NCBI GenBank assembly: GCA_029762625.1
Contig: JARVGI010000014.1
Coordinates: 1 to 35,792, forward strand
From: Methanomicrobiaceae archaeon
GTDB taxonomy: Archaea > Halobacteriota > Methanomicrobia > Methanomicrobiales > Methanomicrobiaceae
Direction of reading: 5' to 3'
Length of the DNA: 35,792 nt
Each line of letters starts with the position of its first letter. Position 1 is the first letter of the stretch. The position numbers were made by a program, and so were the translations under genes. Shown here piece by piece: positions 6,318 through 13,333 of this stretch. Under the pieces are notes generated by a model that searched no databases, had not been told where the DNA came from, and saw only the letters and a list, made by a program, of their open reading frames with translations.

Positions 6318-8006
6318 ATGGCTCTCAGCAACCGGCAGATCGCGGACACCATTCGTCATATGGGGCAGTTACTGGAAATCCAGGGCGAAGAGAACTTCAA
6401 GGTACGCGCCTATGCGCGTGCGGCCGAAACCATCCTGCGGCAGCAAGAGCCGCTTTCCGAAAAGACCGCTGCGGAAATGAGCCGGTTGCCGGGCATCGGG
6501 AAAAATATCGCTGCCAAGATCGTGGAATTGCACGAGACCGGCACCATAGGGGAATATAAACATCTCAGGGAGAGTATCCCCGCAGGAGTGGTGGAACTTC
6601 TGGAACTCGATGGTGTGGGCCCCAAAACCGTGCACAAGCTCTGGAAAAAGTTCGGTATTGTACATGTCGACGCGCTCGAAGCTGCTGCCCGGGGCCACCG
6701 CCTGCGCAGCATGCGAGGGTTCGGGGAAAAGAAGGAGGCTGAAATACTCCGCTCAATTGCACGCCACCGGCAACAGAGCGGGCGGATGAGAAGGGATCAA
6801 GCGGAAGAGGTAATCGATTCCGTCACCGCGGTGCTCCCACCGGATTCGTATATTGTTGCAGGAAGTTTCCGGCGTGGAAAAAGCACGGTGGGTGATATTG
6901 ATATCGTCTCAATTGCACCGGCCGCCAGCGTCAACCGCCTCCTTTTCACGGTTGCCGATGAGGTGATCGACGAGGGAGAACGGCGCACATCGATCCGGGT
7001 GGGCACACGAAGGGTCGACGTCAGGTTCACCGATCGTGCCCATTTCGGCTCGATGCTCGTGTACCTGACCGGGTCCAAACAGTTCAATATCCGCCTCAGG
7101 GGTATTGCACAGGATCAGGGGTGCAAACTGAACGAGTATGGAATCGAACACCTTCAGACCGGCGAACAATTCGCCTTCGTGAATGAAGAGGCGATGTTTC
7201 ACCACCTCGGCATGGACCCCGTCCCGCCCGAACTCAGGGAGGATACCGGCGAGATCGAACGGGCGCAGGCCCACAACCTCCCCTCTCTCGTGGAACGCGG
7301 CCAGATCAGGGGTGATCTGCATGTGCACAGTTCATGGAGCGATGGAGTGCTCGATATTACGGATCTCGCACGGATCGGAGAGCAGCGGGGGTACGAGTAT
7401 ATCCTCATCACCGACCACTCGGCCAGTCTCGGTGTTGCCGGTGGACTGGACGAGCACGCAATCCGGCGGCAGGTACACGAAATCGAGCTGGCGAACAGGA
7501 ACGGAGGCTGCCATCTTCTCGCCGGCATCGAAGTGGACATTCTCAGCGACGGCAGACTCGGGCTTCCCGACCGGGTACTGCAGGATCTTGACGTCGTCGT
7601 GGCTTCGATCCATTCAGGGTTCAAACAGGAGGAGGATGTCATGACCCGCCGCGTCATTGCGGCGCTGCAAAACGAGCACGTGGACATCCTCGGGCATCCC
7701 ACGGGAAGACTGCTTGGCAAGCGCCCTGCGGTGGACATTGACATGGGGCGTATTATCGATGCGGCGGCCGAAACAGGTACCGCAATGGAGATCAACGCCT
7801 CCCCGCACCGGCTCGATATCGACGATACTCATGTTCGGCAGGCGAAGGAGCATGGCGTGCGCATGGCAATTAGCACCGATGCGCACAGGACAGAAGATTT
7901 CGCCAGCATGCACCACGGCCTGGCCGTTGCGCGCAGGGGATGGTGCGAAAAGAACGATATACTCAATACCAAACCTATCCACGAATTGCTGGAGTTCATG
8001 CAATGA
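6318..8006 (+). CDS. polX: DNA polymerase X family protein with PHP exonuclease domain
   Basis: A 562-residue family X DNA polymerase with a C-terminal PHP domain, a base-excision-repair-type gap-filling enzyme with 3'-5' exonuclease or phosphatase activity. In order: helix-hairpin-helix motifs (LPGIGKNIAAKIVEL near 57-72; LDGVGPKTVHKLWKKFG near 95-112); the nucleotidyltransferase motif GSFRRGKSTVGDID at about 182-195, with two catalytic aspartates, and a third in RRVDVRF near 233; then PHP from about 331 with GDLHVHSSWSDG, ITDHS, EVDIL, HPTGR and STDAH, which supply metal-binding His and Asp residues. The length is normal for archaeal and bacterial PolX. Its stop overlaps the start of the next gene (ATGA). 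No defects seen. Confidence 0.95.
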   Translation: MALSNRQIADTIRHMGQLLEIQGEENFKVRAYARAAETILRQQEPLSEKTAAEMSRLPGIGKNIAAKIVELHETGTIGEYKHLRESIPAGVVELLELDGVGPKTVHKLWKKFGIVHVDALEAAARGHRLRSMRGFGEKKEAEILRSIARHRQQSGRMRRDQAEEVIDSVTAVLPPDSYIVAGSFRRGKSTVGDIDIVSIAPAASVNRLLFTVADEVIDEGERRTSIRVGTRRVDVRFTDRAHFGSMLVYLTGSKQFNIRLRGIAQDQGCKLNEYGIEHLQTGEQFAFVNEEAMFHHLGMDPVPPELREDTGEIERAQAHNLPSLVERGQIRGDLHVHSSWSDGVLDITDLARIGEQRGYEYILITDHSASLGVAGGLDEHAIRRQVHEIELANRNGGCHLLAGIEVDILSDGRLGLPDRVLQDLDVVVASIHSGFKQEEDVMTRRVIAALQNEHVDILGHPTGRLLGKRPAVDIDMGRIIDAAAETGTAMEINASPHRLDIDDTHVRQAKEHGVRMAISTDAHRTEDFASMHHGLAVARRGWCEKNDILNTKPIHELLEFMQ

Positions 8007-8593
8007 TACACTGGCTGTATGAATACCTCCTGAGGAGAAAACTGCAGGTCTTCCCCCGGCACATCTGTTTCATGATCGCGGATCACGATCTTGCGGCCAG
8101 CCCGGAAAAGATCGTCGACGTGGTGTCATGGTGCAGGGAGCTTGGCATCGAGGGCGTGACCGTCCATATCAGCACATCCGAGAGTGCTTCGATTGCATCG
8201 CTCATGCCTGCCATCCGCAAGATCGAAACCATCGCACAGCTGCATCTCCACTGCGGCAGCGACACGGAAATTTCGGGCACCGGGATGCCCGTGTTCGTCG
8301 CCATCGGAAAGAGCGGCCGCGAAGAGATTTGCGCCTGTATCAGGGATCTTGCAAAGGAAGGGGTTGCACCGGAGGACGTGGACGAACAACGCATCGAAGC
8401 GCTCCTCACGTTCAAATGCGAACCCGATCTTGTCATCAAGACCGGCGGGAGCCATCTCACCGACTTTCTGATCTGGCAGTCGGTATACTCCGAGCTCTTT
8501 TTTTCGGACGTCAACTGGAAATTATTCAGAAAAACTGATTTCCTGCGTGCCCTTCGAGATTATCAATTCCGCACGCGGCGTTTCGGGACATAA
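8003..8593 (+). CDS. Degenerate cis-prenyltransferase homologue, probable non-catalytic subunit
   Basis: A 196-residue relative of undecaprenyl diphosphate synthase. At residues 18-29 (PRHICFMIADHD) it aligns with the active-site motif H-I-A-V-I-x-D-G-N-R-R-Y-A, but the catalytic aspartate column is alanine and the GNRR(Y/W)A residues plus about 15 following ones are missing. The C-terminal half keeps PDLVIKTGG and DFLIWQSVYSELFF, the usual dimer and product-site region, and the protein ends in RRFGT, an RxG motif as at the end of bacterial UppS and eukaryotic NgBR/Nus1. This pattern fits the accessory subunit of a heteromeric cis-prenyltransferase (inference), with the catalytic partner encoded convergently next door. 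Start ATG overlaps the polX stop (ATGA); the 3' end overlaps the partner gene by 31 bp. Confidence 0.8.
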   Translation: MIHWLYEYLLRRKLQVFPRHICFMIADHDLAASPEKIVDVVSWCRELGIEGVTVHISTSESASIASLMPAIRKIETIAQLHLHCGSDTEISGTGMPVFVAIGKSGREEICACIRDLAKEGVAPEDVDEQRIEALLTFKCEPDLVIKTGGSHLTDFLIWQSVYSELFFSDVNWKLFRKTDFLRALRDYQFRTRRFGT

Positions 8594-9354
8594 GCATTCA
8601 ATTTCATCCGCTGGTCGTATACTCTGATAGCCCGCAGGAGATCCAGTTTCCTGAAGACGGGCCAGTAGGGGGCGCAAAAATACACTGCAGACTCGTTGCC
8701 GTTCGCCGACCACGGAAGAAAATTTGACGTCCGCTGCTCGTCGCCGGTGCGAATGATCAGATCGACCGGTGGGAGGTTCATTCCGTTGTGGAGGTGTGCT
8801 TCCACCACCCCCATATCGATCGCTTCGGGAGCAAGGGATCCCTGCCTGACCTCTTGCAGGATGGATCGGGCCGCATGGACGATCTCGTTGCGTCCTCCAT
8901 AGGCAAGGGCTACATTGACGAAAAAATTGCCGTATGCCGCGGTTGCCTGCTCCACTTCCCGGATGCATTCGAGGAGATCGGGGGGGAGGAGGGTGCGGTC
9001 GCCCACCATCCGGACGCGCATCTTATATGCATGTGTCCGTTCATCCTCCAGCACGCGCTGGAACATTTCCTTGAAAAGGGCAAAGAGCGATTCGACCTCT
9101 TCCATGTCACGGGAAAAATTTTCGGTGGAAAATGAGTAGAGGGTGATATGGCGGATACCCAGATCGCGCGACCATTCAAGCAGTTTTTCCGTGGTCCCGG
9201 CGCCAGCGCGGTGTCCCAGTGTTGCCCCAATGCCATAGAGGCGCGCGTACCGGCGGTTGCCGTCCTGTATCACGGCGATATGGTTGGGAACATAGGATAT
9301 GTGTTTTACAAGGAGTTTGCCATAGCCTGCTTCAACCAGACTGCGCACATTCAT
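8563..9354 (-). CDS. uppS: Cis-prenyltransferase, catalytic (undecaprenyl diphosphate synthase family)
   Basis: A 263-residue cis-prenyltransferase that would condense isopentenyl diphosphate onto an allylic primer to make the polyprenyl phosphate carrier for glycosylation. Near the N-terminus it has the active-site motif HIAVIQDGNRRYA (catalytic Asp), then GHRAGA, LYSFSTENFSR, NVALAYGGRNEI and the substrate motif IIRTGDEQRTSNFLPW. The C-terminus (KRRVRN) lacks the RxG motif that completes the active site in homodimeric enzymes, which points to need of a partner. The ATG at 9354 overlaps the upstream radical SAM stop (ATGA); the frame is open upstream, but that part overlaps the neighbouring gene and lacks homology. 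It is the last gene of the lysS operon. Confidence 0.92.
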   Translation of the reverse strand: MNVRSLVEAGYGKLLVKHISYVPNHIAVIQDGNRRYARLYGIGATLGHRAGAGTTEKLLEWSRDLGIRHITLYSFSTENFSRDMEEVESLFALFKEMFQRVLEDERTHAYKMRVRMVGDRTLLPPDLLECIREVEQATAAYGNFFVNVALAYGGRNEIVHAARSILQEVRQGSLAPEAIDMGVVEAHLHNGMNLPPVDLIIRTGDEQRTSNFLPWSANGNESAVYFCAPYWPVFRKLDLLRAIRVYDQRMKLNAYVPKRRVRN

Positions 9355-10319
9355 AGAGGGGTTACCTCCACCACCATACCCCCGTTGGGATACCGCTCGA
9401 CCACGTATTTCGTTCCCGGCAGGTGTTTTGCATGCTCGACCAGAACCCACCATGCCATGTGGAGTTGATCCCCTACATCTTCATAAAGATCGTGATCGAA
9501 AGGTATCACCTGGCCTGAGCGCTCCCAGACTCCGTACACCACTGTCCCGTCATCGGTGATCTCGTCGAAGCTGCGGGCGGTGTTGCGGGCAATGCGTTTC
9601 AGCCGCTCCCGCAACTGCACCGAGTCCTTGAACACCGACGAGCACCAGTGGACACGGGTATGGGCAAGGAGTTCCTCCGCCCACACGCGTGCCCCCCCGA
9701 CGGCGTTGTGGTAGCAGTCCTCGAGATCGTACCCCCGTGATCGCATCGCATTCGCATTGGTCTCGCTCCATTCGAGTTCGTTGATATTGAGGAAATCGAG
9801 CAGAGGAAGCACAGGGATGAGTGCCTCGAGGCCCGGAAGCGACGGCACCTCGATGCCCACTGCGAATCCAAGGTCTCTGGCAGCATGGATCGCCGAGATA
9901 TATGGGGAATGCAGGATCTCCGGCCAGCATTCGTGAGGCGGATGGAGGCGGATTTCATCGACAAGGCCCTGCAGTTGCCGGAGATCTTCGATAGATGGCG
10001 CTTTTCCGGTATAGAGATGAATGTGGTGCTCCTTCCCGAATTCGGATTTGAGCAGCGAGCAGTAGCGGACCAGCACCTCCATGGCGATGAGCGGTTCGCC
10101 CCCGGTGATTCCGGTGCCGAGTGCGCTCATGATCCGCCCCTCCTCGATCAGGTCGGCATCGGACCCGATACGGCGGTCGTTGGCATATGCTGCATCACCG
10201 CCGCGCCGTTCCGCTGAAATCGGACAGTACCAGCAGTTTCTCGGGCATATTCCCGTGAGGAAAAGCACCATTTTCGCACCCTGGTGGCACAGGATGCATC
10301 CTTCACTCAGTTCCTGCAT
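9351..10319 (-). CDS. Radical SAM protein, COG2108 type (PflA-related)
   Basis: A 322-residue radical SAM protein. The cluster motif is CPRNCWYCP near residues 25-33 (C-x3-C-x2-C), preceded by GCILCHQGAKMVLFLTGI, whose extra CxxC pair is typical of the archaeal group related to pyruvate formate-lyase activating enzyme (COG2108). A GGEP SAM-contact motif lies near residue 74. The barrel continues (VDEIRLHPPHE, FAVGIEVPSLPG, FLNINELEWSETNA), followed by a C-terminal domain of unknown type. The substrate is not known. It sits between lysS (17-nt overlap) and the cis-prenyltransferase gene (4-nt overlap), so all three are probably one transcript; whether that reflects function or only packing is open. 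Confidence 0.85.
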   Translation of the reverse strand: MQELSEGCILCHQGAKMVLFLTGICPRNCWYCPISAERRGGDAAYANDRRIGSDADLIEEGRIMSALGTGITGGEPLIAMEVLVRYCSLLKSEFGKEHHIHLYTGKAPSIEDLRQLQGLVDEIRLHPPHECWPEILHSPYISAIHAARDLGFAVGIEVPSLPGLEALIPVLPLLDFLNINELEWSETNANAMRSRGYDLEDCYHNAVGGARVWAEELLAHTRVHWCSSVFKDSVQLRERLKRIARNTARSFDEITDDGTVVYGVWERSGQVIPFDHDLYEDVGDQLHMAWWVLVEHAKHLPGTKYVVERYPNGGMVVEVTPL

Positions 10320-11835
10320 TGACCGCTTCCATCAGTCGCCCGACCACGAATTCCCTGCCCAGCGCCTCAAGGAACCACCCCAGTCTCGGACCGCGTTTCT
10401 GCCCGAGAATCGAGAGGTACACCGCAGTGAAAATCTGCTTCGGGTCCACATTCGTCTCCTTGCCCACCTCGTAGACCGCGTTGTGGAGGCGCTCCGCCGA
10501 CCAGTCATCAAGTGCCATATACCGCGCGGCGAGCACGCCAAGGGCATACCGCTCATTCGCACCCGGTTCGAGTGCGGAGGGGGGGAGGGTCTCCTGCACC
10601 TCGAACTTCACGAAATCGGGCGCGTATCGCTCAATCCAGATCCGCGCGCGATGGGCGGCGGCAAGCACACCTTCCCGGGTGCCGATCGCATAGCCGCTCC
10701 GTTCGAGTATCTCGAGCACCCCCTCGTCATCACGGGCAATCTGCACAACGGTCACCATGTGGCGGAAGGGGATGGCGGATTCGATCCCGGTAATGGAGGA
10801 GAGCTCGTATTCCCTGCTTTCTCCAGCCTGCGCCACGCGATCGAACTCATCGATGAGTGAAAGCAGCCCCATTGCAGGGTCGAAATCGATCGCTTTCTCC
10901 GGTTTCGTCCGGGCGATCAGGTAGCGCAGGACGTCCGGGGGGACGAGTTCGAGCATCGAGTTGATCGTCACCGCCACGCCCGTGGAAGAGGCCATGGCCC
11001 CTCTGCCTTTGAGGCTGATCCACTCGTACATTACCGGGAAGGGAGCCCTGTACCTGAAGATCGCCTCGGCGATTTCCATGCCCGTATCATATGAGCCTCC
11101 GGCTGCCGCATGGTCTTTGCCGAATGGCTCCACAGTCACCCTGAAGTGTACCCAGCGCATGGGCCAGTCAACCCGCCAGACGAGCTTGCCCTCGCCTTTC
11201 GCGTAGTCGGCATCGCCCACATGCCCGCATTCACAGCGGTACCGTACCTTATGCGCGTCGGGGTCGAATATGAGAATTTCTGCATTGCTAATCCTCCTGC
11301 ATTGCTCACAGATCGGGTAGAATGGCGACCATGTGTCGGGAAGCGCGCGATGCGACACCCTCTCGAGAATTTCTCTGATCTCTTCCCTTTTCTCGATGAC
11401 GCGGGTGATCTCTTCGGTATAGGATCCGCCGCGATATTCCCTGCTCGCCCTGATCACGCGCGGGTGCACGTCCATTACATCGAGTGCTGCCAGGAACGGC
11501 GCGAGAAAATGCTCTGCATAGTTCTCGCATGCACCGCAGGGACAGGGGATGTCACAGAGGGGTCGCCCGATATACTGCGCATAGTCCTGCGGGAGAAAGG
11601 GGTAAACTTTCCTGAGCGGGTCAAAATCATCCGCGATATAGATAAGTTCGACATCAAGCCCCCGGTCCCGCATCGCTTTGTATACAAGGTCTCCCGTGAC
11701 CACCTCGCGCATATTGCCGATATGGATCGGTCCGGAGGGCGTGATCCCGGTTGCTACCCTGTGGCTGATTTCCGGTTCAACCTTTGCCGCGAAGACATCA
11801 GCCCAGTGAATTTTCTCGCTCACCGCAACCACCAT
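10303..11835 (-). CDS. lysS: Lysyl-tRNA synthetase, class I
   Basis: A 510-residue class I LysRS, which charges tRNA-Lys. The HIGH-type motif is PSGPIHIGN near residues 33-41. A zinc-binding insertion carries CPCGAC and CEQCRR...CECGHVG, and the KMSKS-equivalent loop is KGRGAMASSTG near residue 280, an accepted variant in this class. The helical C-terminal anticodon-binding part ends in RLGWFLEALGREFVVGRLMEAV. The length matches the archaeal family, which is unrelated to the class II enzyme of most bacteria. The ATG at 11835 is followed four codons later by a GTG (VSEKIHW), which could also serve; neither has a clear ribosome binding site. It leads an operon with the radical SAM gene and uppS. 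Confidence 0.96.
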   Translation of the reverse strand: MVVAVSEKIHWADVFAAKVEPEISHRVATGITPSGPIHIGNMREVVTGDLVYKAMRDRGLDVELIYIADDFDPLRKVYPFLPQDYAQYIGRPLCDIPCPCGACENYAEHFLAPFLAALDVMDVHPRVIRASREYRGGSYTEEITRVIEKREEIREILERVSHRALPDTWSPFYPICEQCRRISNAEILIFDPDAHKVRYRCECGHVGDADYAKGEGKLVWRVDWPMRWVHFRVTVEPFGKDHAAAGGSYDTGMEIAEAIFRYRAPFPVMYEWISLKGRGAMASSTGVAVTINSMLELVPPDVLRYLIARTKPEKAIDFDPAMGLLSLIDEFDRVAQAGESREYELSSITGIESAIPFRHMVTVVQIARDDEGVLEILERSGYAIGTREGVLAAAHRARIWIERYAPDFVKFEVQETLPPSALEPGANERYALGVLAARYMALDDWSAERLHNAVYEVGKETNVDPKQIFTAVYLSILGQKRGPRLGWFLEALGREFVVGRLMEAVNAGTE

Positions 11836-11983: not shown

Positions 11984-13087
11984 TCACGGGGAGACGCGGT
12001 ATGAGGTGATGCAATCGGTGTAGTCGTCGAACCAGTATGCCCGCGGATTGCGTGCATACACCAGTACCCTTCCTGTGTTGTCTGACTCTGCGGCCTGGTT
12101 GTACCGGAAGATGATCGCTTTCGCGGTGTTCCCGGTGACCTCGATCTTGCCGCTTGCGTGTGACATCACGAACCTCGCAGACTTGGCGAGGCCTGAACAG
12201 CGGGCGCGCGCCATCTCCACGATGCGGTATGCTTCCTCGACCGGGACGGTGTAGATTTTGTTTCCCGTTGAGGGCCTGCACTGGAACACGTAGTACGGAG
12301 AGATGCCGGCGTATGATAACTGGTTGAAGAGCTCGGCGAGGACCACCGGATTATCGTTCACACCACGGATCAGCGGGGTCTGGTTCATCAGAATTGCTCC
12401 GCTCTGCTGGAGCTGCGCGATTGCCCTCCGCGCCGCATCCGTCATCTCCCGGGGGTGGTCGAAATGCGTCATGACGTAGATGCGCCTCGCAGGTGTACTG
12501 TGGCGGGCAATCATCCGGAGAAGGGAGGGATCCTGTGTTATCCTGAAAGGATTATACGCGGGAATCTTGCTGCCGATACGGATGATGCGGACGTGATCGA
12601 TCGTGCGGAGCGCGGCGACGATCGCTTCTAGTTTTGGGGTGGGCAGCATGAGCGGATCACCGCCCGATATGAGCACATTGCTGATTTCGGGATGGTTGCG
12701 GATATAATCCAGCCCTTCTCCCATATCAAACGCCACTTCGGAGTCGTCATCGACAAATATCCGTTTTCTGAAACAAAAACGGCAAAACCCTCCGCACATG
12801 TCGCTGACCAGCATGAGGGCTGTCTGGCCGTATTTGTGTTGCACCCCGGGAGCCACGGTGAAGCGCTCTTCCGAAGAGGGATCCAGCGTCCCCCACGTAT
12901 CCAGTTCGCCTTCATGCGGGATGATAAGCCTGCGTATTGGATCCTCGGCATCTTTCCAGCGGATCAATGACAGGTAATAGTCATTCGCGCGAAACGCAAA
13001 CCACCGTGTTACCTTCTTTAAGGAAATTTTTTCTTCGTTGGTTAACCCGACCACATGTTCAATATCGGTAACGTACTGTGGTTTCAT
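11984..13087 (-). CDS. KamA-family radical SAM aminomutase, substrate uncertain
   Basis: A 367-residue member of the lysine 2,3-aminomutase family. The radical SAM motif C-GGF-C-RF-C (in MCGGFCRFCFRKR) and the GGDPLMLP loop are present, as is the PLP-type lysine in the late ASGKIEV segment. Against lysine 2,3-aminomutase, the two aspartates that hold the lysine side-chain amine seem absent: the YxCDL region reads YVFQCRPSTG and the VVDAPGGGGK region reads FVMSHASGK (my alignment by eye). It may therefore act on another amino acid. In methanogens this family is known for beta-lysine synthesis with an acetyltransferase (AblB), but none is adjacent. I chose the ATG at 13087 because GGAG lies six bases upstream; an ATG 14 codons earlier is also open. 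Confidence 0.82.
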   Translation of the reverse strand: MKPQYVTDIEHVVGLTNEEKISLKKVTRWFAFRANDYYLSLIRWKDAEDPIRRLIIPHEGELDTWGTLDPSSEERFTVAPGVQHKYGQTALMLVSDMCGGFCRFCFRKRIFVDDDSEVAFDMGEGLDYIRNHPEISNVLISGGDPLMLPTPKLEAIVAALRTIDHVRIIRIGSKIPAYNPFRITQDPSLLRMIARHSTPARRIYVMTHFDHPREMTDAARRAIAQLQQSGAILMNQTPLIRGVNDNPVVLAELFNQLSYAGISPYYVFQCRPSTGNKIYTVPVEEAYRIVEMARARCSGLAKSARFVMSHASGKIEVTGNTAKAIIFRYNQAAESDNTGRVLVYARNPRAYWFDDYTDCITSYRVSP

Positions 13088-13333
13088 GCCAGACTCCGTA
13101 GTTAATTTTGAGGGCAAAATGCGGTGCAAACCTCCATCCTGTGGGTTTTTAAAATATTGTCATCCGCTGAAGTGGTCGCCCTCAGTACCACTACAGGGAA
13201 GATCTATTTAATTATTTAGGTATCTCGATAAAATTATTTATAATTTTGTTTTCCTTCTGAGGGTCAATGTAAGCCAATTTTGGCTTTCTCCCAGAGAAAT
13301 GTGGTGGGATAATAGAGATATGAGAGAAATATA
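13088..13333. other. Gene-free AT-rich stretch with two dyads, leader of the KamA-type gene
   Basis: No coding frame is supported here. On the minus strand a TATA-like run (AATTATAAATAATTTT, about 13226-13241) could start the KamA-type transcript, leaving a leader of about 110 nt that contains a 6-bp stem (AGTGGT 13171-13176 with ACCACT 13187-13192). A second perfect dyad, AAGCCAA-TT-TTGGCTT (13271-13286), lies between that promoter and the end of the zinc-ribbon gene. I do not recognise a known riboswitch fold. Confidence 0.45.

Follow-up and report, generated by a model that had tools for sequence, protein, structure and literature searches.

In archaea, two subunits have been reported to be required for cis-prenyltransferase activity (PMC8904820), and in Methanosarcina mazei MM_0618 and MM_1083 constitute a heteromeric enzyme yielding C45-50 products (Emi et al. 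2019, cited in PMC8131916). A further M. mazei protein, MM_0014, lacks the RxG motif and is nevertheless an active homodimer (PMC8131916). In the human enzyme, the tail of the accessory subunit NgBR enters the active site of DHDDS, where the terminal carboxylate, located one residue past the Gly, binds R37 and R85 (PMC7573591).

The window, that is, the whole stretch of 35,792 nucleotides analysed here, contains two PF01255 genes that converge tail to tail. The plus-strand gene (8003..8593, from the ATG at 8003 to the TAA at 8593) encodes a catalytically degenerate, NgBR/Nus1-like protein of 196 amino acids, hereafter the accessory subunit, while the minus-strand gene (8563..9354, from the ATG at 9354 to the TGA at 8563) encodes a DHDDS/UppS-like catalytic protein of 263 amino acids. 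The two genes overlap by 31 bp (8563..8593), the catalytic stop codon TGA lying at 8565-8563, just as the preliminary description had them. Relatives of both proteins were found throughout the order Methanomicrobiales at about 45-96% identity, and therefore neither gene is a chance open reading frame. The start codon of the accessory gene overlaps, as ATGA, the stop codon of a DNA polymerase X (PolX) gene situated directly upstream (6318..8006, plus strand; NF006375, 507 bits). Similarly, the ATG of the catalytic gene overlaps, also as ATGA, the stop codon of the gene upstream of it, which encodes an uncharacterised radical SAM protein (9351..10319, minus strand; PF04055 at its cut-off). The pair constitutes the 3' ends of two opposite transcription units. 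Farther along on the catalytic side lies a gene for a class I lysyl-tRNA synthetase (LysS; 10303..11835, minus strand; TIGR00467, 524 bits), a neighbour that is shared with other families. In the host genome (2.2 Mb in 28 contigs, 99.8% complete), these are the only two PF01255 genes, and there are two genes for STT3, the oligosaccharyltransferase. In a scan of a collection of genome contigs, the best 80 matches were all from Methanomicrobiales.

The catalytic protein matched the whole PF01255 profile (1-215, E value of 4e-65). It carries HIAVIQDGNRRYA, ends in PKRRVRN, and contains the Asp, GNxR, FSTEN and RxS motifs. The DGNRR catalytic motif (D31-R35; 9250..9264, minus strand) did not vary among the 180 catalytic homologues that have residues at these columns, and neither did the two Arg and the Ser of the pyrophosphate-binding RxxxxxRxS motif (R202-x5-R208-x-S210; 8725..8751, minus strand), whose residues correspond in the profile alignment to R194, R200 and S202 of Escherichia coli UppS. 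Thus, Asp31, Asn33, Arg34, Arg35, Arg202, Arg208 and Ser210 were each kept in 180/180 sequences of that alignment, a count of related sequences and not of independent events. An RxG at a conserved place was not found in the catalytic tails, in which scattered chance R.G occurrences were present in 19/179; the protein had indeed been described as catalytic and devoid of RxG. Its predicted structure (pLDDT of 87) was compared with the PDB by Foldseek, and the best seven matches were chains of human DHDDS (TMq of 0.83-0.86). The idea that the accessory subunit provides in trans the equivalent of Glu213 of E. coli UppS was set aside as unproven, given that HMMER and MAFFT place Glu221 of the catalytic protein differently.

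For its part, the accessory protein matched PF01255 over the C-terminal half of the profile (106-219, E value of 1.5e-26). The place of the catalytic Asp is occupied by Ala in the window and mostly by Thr, Ser or Ala among the homologues, and GNRR is lost; in the RxS region a Lys stands at the place of R194, and the places of R200 and S202 are altered. The protein ends in RTRRFGT, in which the C-terminal RxG (R193-F194-G195; 8579..8593, plus strand) is followed by a single residue and the stop codon. This R-x-G-x-stop arrangement was present in 182 of 187 homologous open reading frames, again related sequences and not independent events, the five exceptions being RKFG (three), RTLG (one) and a truncated frame (one). 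Arg192, Arg193 and Gly195 were kept almost without exception. The preliminary reading of this protein as one that had lost the catalytic Asp and GNRR and yet ended in RxG was thus borne out. In one draft genome (G131; locus L057, 2052-2324, plus strand), the accessory frame stops after IKTGG, which reflects either a sequencing error or a real loss.

Human NUS1 was the PDB family whose alignment with the accessory profile covered nearly all of it (12-196), and it was also the best match, albeit a weak one (E value of 0.002), of the N-terminal half of the protein. At the lost catalytic site, the pattern LPxHhxxhIT is common to the accessory protein and NUS1. The predicted structure (pLDDT of 85.8) has the cis-prenyltransferase fold, and UppS, plant enzymes and NgBR matched it about equally. 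The loss of the catalytic Asp, GNRR and the Arg and Ser of RxS is what would be expected if the plus-strand gene were the decaying pseudogene of a second synthase. However, the frame is open at 174-208 amino acids in 79 loci of the order (the shortest ends at a contig end), 28 columns are invariant in an alignment of 64 accessory sequences, and the gene is conserved across the phylum. Decay is refuted by this conservation, and we give it practically no credence.

PF01255 genes were present in 144 of the 150 genomes sampled from the order, nearly always as two; the few genomes without the usual two were mostly incomplete assemblies. Among order genomes at least 90% complete, one had no PF01255 genes and one had the accessory gene only. 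Both genes were found in all 61 high-quality genomes of the order, the full-length accessory gene being detected with its own profile. Outside the order, 52 genomes of the phylum were examined, 47 of which carried both genes and 5 neither, so that both were present in 47/47 of the PF01255-bearing genomes. The PF01255-less genomes (G155, G164, G173, G182 and G189) all belonged to one family, f12. The split active site is close to invariant across the phylum, with complete co-occurrence in nearly all good genomes, in agreement with the earlier proposal of two complementary subunits.

These observations bear on the possibility that the catalytic protein alone is a homodimer without RxG and that the plus-strand protein acts as a regulator or in some other role. 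MM_0014 offers a precedent, since it works as a homodimer without the motif (PMC8131916). Nevertheless, a partner that lacks catalytic residues has preserved the RxG tail down to the exact residue, and a catalytic gene deprived of its partner, the very finding singled out beforehand as contrary to a split enzyme, occurred neither in the 61 high-quality genomes of the order nor in the 47 other PF01255-bearing ones. Furthermore, MM_0014 belongs to a distant subgroup: although it is archaeal and lacks RxG like the catalytic protein of the window, it is shorter, ends in TLGG instead of PKRRVRN, and scores 77 bits with the catalytic profile versus about 200 bits for UppS and DHDDS, and an MM_0014-type identity was rejected on these grounds. 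A homodimer therefore seems unlikely to us. A third cis-prenyltransferase that ends in TLGG like MM_0014 was observed in one relative, G008 (locus L060, 2496-3416, minus strand).

We consider it very likely that the pair codes for the two subunits of a heteromeric cis-prenyltransferase for the glycan carrier lipid, and that the overlap stems from a poorly constrained catalytic 3' end. The residue split, the conservation, the co-occurrence and the fold are observed; by homology with the described enzymes, the two proteins would assemble into an active complex. The minus-strand subunit would bind the allylic primer, Mg2+ and IPP through Asp31, GNRR, FSTEN and RxS. The plus-strand subunit, of the same fold but without catalytic residues, would pair with it through the dimer interface typical of cis-prenyltransferases, and its R-x-G-x-COOH tail would enter the partner's active site, as that of NgBR does in DHDDS. 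Both subunits would presumably be needed, and the product would be a polyprenyl (dolichol-type) diphosphate that serves as carrier in glycan assembly, probably used by the two STT3 proteins of the host. The word obligate, applied to the heteromer in the preliminary description, is unproven because MM_0014 is an active homodimer without RxG (PMC8131916).

Among the described systems, the M. mazei pair MM_0618/MM_1083, which bears out the earlier statement that a heteromeric enzyme had been reported for an archaeon (PMC8131916), comes from a methanogen of the same wider group, and its two paralogues jointly serve a glycosyl carrier lipid. Unlike the pair of the window, which is adjacent, convergent and overlapping by 31 bp, the M. 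mazei genes lie far apart, the comparison being made from the published description and the locus tags; in addition, M. mazei has a third paralogue, MM_0014, which has no counterpart in the host genome. Human DHDDS/NgBR (NUS1) and yeast Rer2/Nus1 share with the pair the same folds, a catalytic subunit without RxG and an accessory subunit without the catalytic Asp, and in NgBR, as in the archaeal accessory protein, RxG is followed by exactly one residue. However, only 17 residues precede the conserved Pro18 of the archaeal protein, leaving no room for a membrane region, and for lack of this N-terminal region its classification as a eukaryotic NgBR/Nus1 sensu stricto was rejected. Likewise, the catalytic protein has too few residues to accommodate the helix-turn-helix extension of DHDDS. 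Bacterial homodimeric UppS resembles the pair in fold, in DGNxR and RxS, and in the RxG sequence RRFG, but it combines the catalytic Asp with RxG in a single chain, whereas here they are on two; an assignment to homodimeric UppS was accordingly discarded.

Regarding gene order, the pair was convergent in all 81 loci of the order with both genes inside the fetched flank, and the tail-to-tail orientation was present in linked pairs of all six order families sampled. Beyond the order, every linked pair fetched, from eight families, was convergent too, and convergence is therefore an old and common state. The head-on arrangement had been thought unusual, an idea that must be abandoned because nearly every linked pair of the phylum shows it. 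The pair was rearranged or separated in a few genomes (e.g., G014, G021 and G033), and the genes are unlinked in several families and kilobases apart in some other lineages. Genes for the radical SAM protein and for LysS are repeatedly found on the side of the catalytic gene, while PolX stands beside the accessory gene within the order only. In the order, and in one family besides, the radical SAM gene (9351-10319, minus strand) usually neighbours the catalytic gene on its upstream side; searches for a close NCBIfam family or a PDB match to its protein gave none, and a link to polyprenyl lipids is conceivable. The gene adjoining that of the class I LysS (11984-13129, minus strand) encodes a KamA-family radical SAM aminomutase-like protein, which scored above the TIGR00238 subfamily cut-off and fell far short of the equivalog cut-offs for AblA, glutamate and arginine.

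As for the overlap itself, which the preliminary description had left to a survey of the Methanomicrobiales, convergence held throughout the 81 loci of the order, whereas the length of 31 bp did not: overlaps of 31, 27, 20 or 13 bp were found depending on the lineage. In most cases there is no overlap. Two observations from separate families outside the order were overlaps of the same convergent pair by 186 bp (L132, 1227-1412) and by 54 bp (L126, 2232-2285).

In the window's family the two frames are in a wobble-versus-wobble phase, codon position 3 of the plus strand facing codon position 3 of the minus strand, and because of this phase the catalytic tail nearly mirrors the accessory codons. 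Thus, Gly (GGN) is read in antisense as Pro, Phe (TTY) as Lys or Asn, and Arg (CGN) as Arg; the catalytic P-K-R-R-V-R-N-stop is paired with G-F-R-R-T-R-F-Q of the accessory protein, the KRRVRN tail being the antisense reading of FRTRRF, and the catalytic stop TGA faces the Tyr187-Gln188 codons of the partner. Whether the overlap measures 13 or 31 bp is decided in this family by one codon of the RxG motif. With RRYG (TAY after CGT), the antisense strand reads TAA, which cuts the catalytic protein short by six residues and gives 13 bp (12/12 cases); where the motif is RRFG or RTLG, the catalytic frame continues to the TGA opposite TAT-CAR, giving 31 bp (10/10). The choice between Phe and Tyr changed at least three times on the family tree, from which the truncated accessory frame of L057 was left out, and both states were found within a single genus, g5 (L040 and L043). 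In L043, a synonymous AGA in place of CGN in the accessory gene converts an Arg of the catalytic tail into Leu. All four lengths seen in the order correspond to sites at which the strand antisense to the accessory gene has its first in-phase stop.

The accessory gene has a fixed end to which the catalytic tail conforms, and therefore the lock is one-sided. The claim that neither tail is free to change does not stand: the overlap is variable or missing, and only the RxG side is conserved. Judging from the aligned sequences, the catalytic tail, which is variable, is apparently dispensable and the lock harmless. The locus thus provides an example of a substitution in the active-site motif of one gene that makes the product of the neighbouring gene six residues longer or shorter, apparently without harm.

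The recurrence of tail-to-tail pairs in six families of the order and eight outside it could also be explained if the overlap were a functional device, with the two subunits kept in balance by antisense transcription at the 3' ends or by a coding lock acting both ways. We regard such a device as very unlikely, since the overlap varies from 186 to 54, 31, 27, 20 or 13 bp or is absent, in other lineages the genes are unlinked or separated by kilobases, and the catalytic tail shifts even with synonymous codons of the partner, as with the Arg-to-Leu change above. A related proposal, that the tail-to-tail order persists in much of the phylum, despite the separate transcription units, since converging 3' transcripts couple the amounts of the two subunits, overlaps being its tightest form, appears very unlikely. 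Equal expression is not enforced by the gene order, because the subunits are encoded on opposite strands. The overlap looks like a by-product and not a device: a poorly constrained catalytic 3' end would run into the partner's antisense strand as far as the first stop.

The type of enzyme was already known; this pair is a new member of it, and its overlap is incidental. The analysis extends the NgBR-type split enzyme from one archaeon to almost every genome sampled in the phylum, and in many genomes, that of the host included, the split pair is the sole PF01255 enzyme. Mutation of the RxG motif in the human DHDDS/NgBR complex causes disease, and the small archaeal pairs may provide simple models of that complex.
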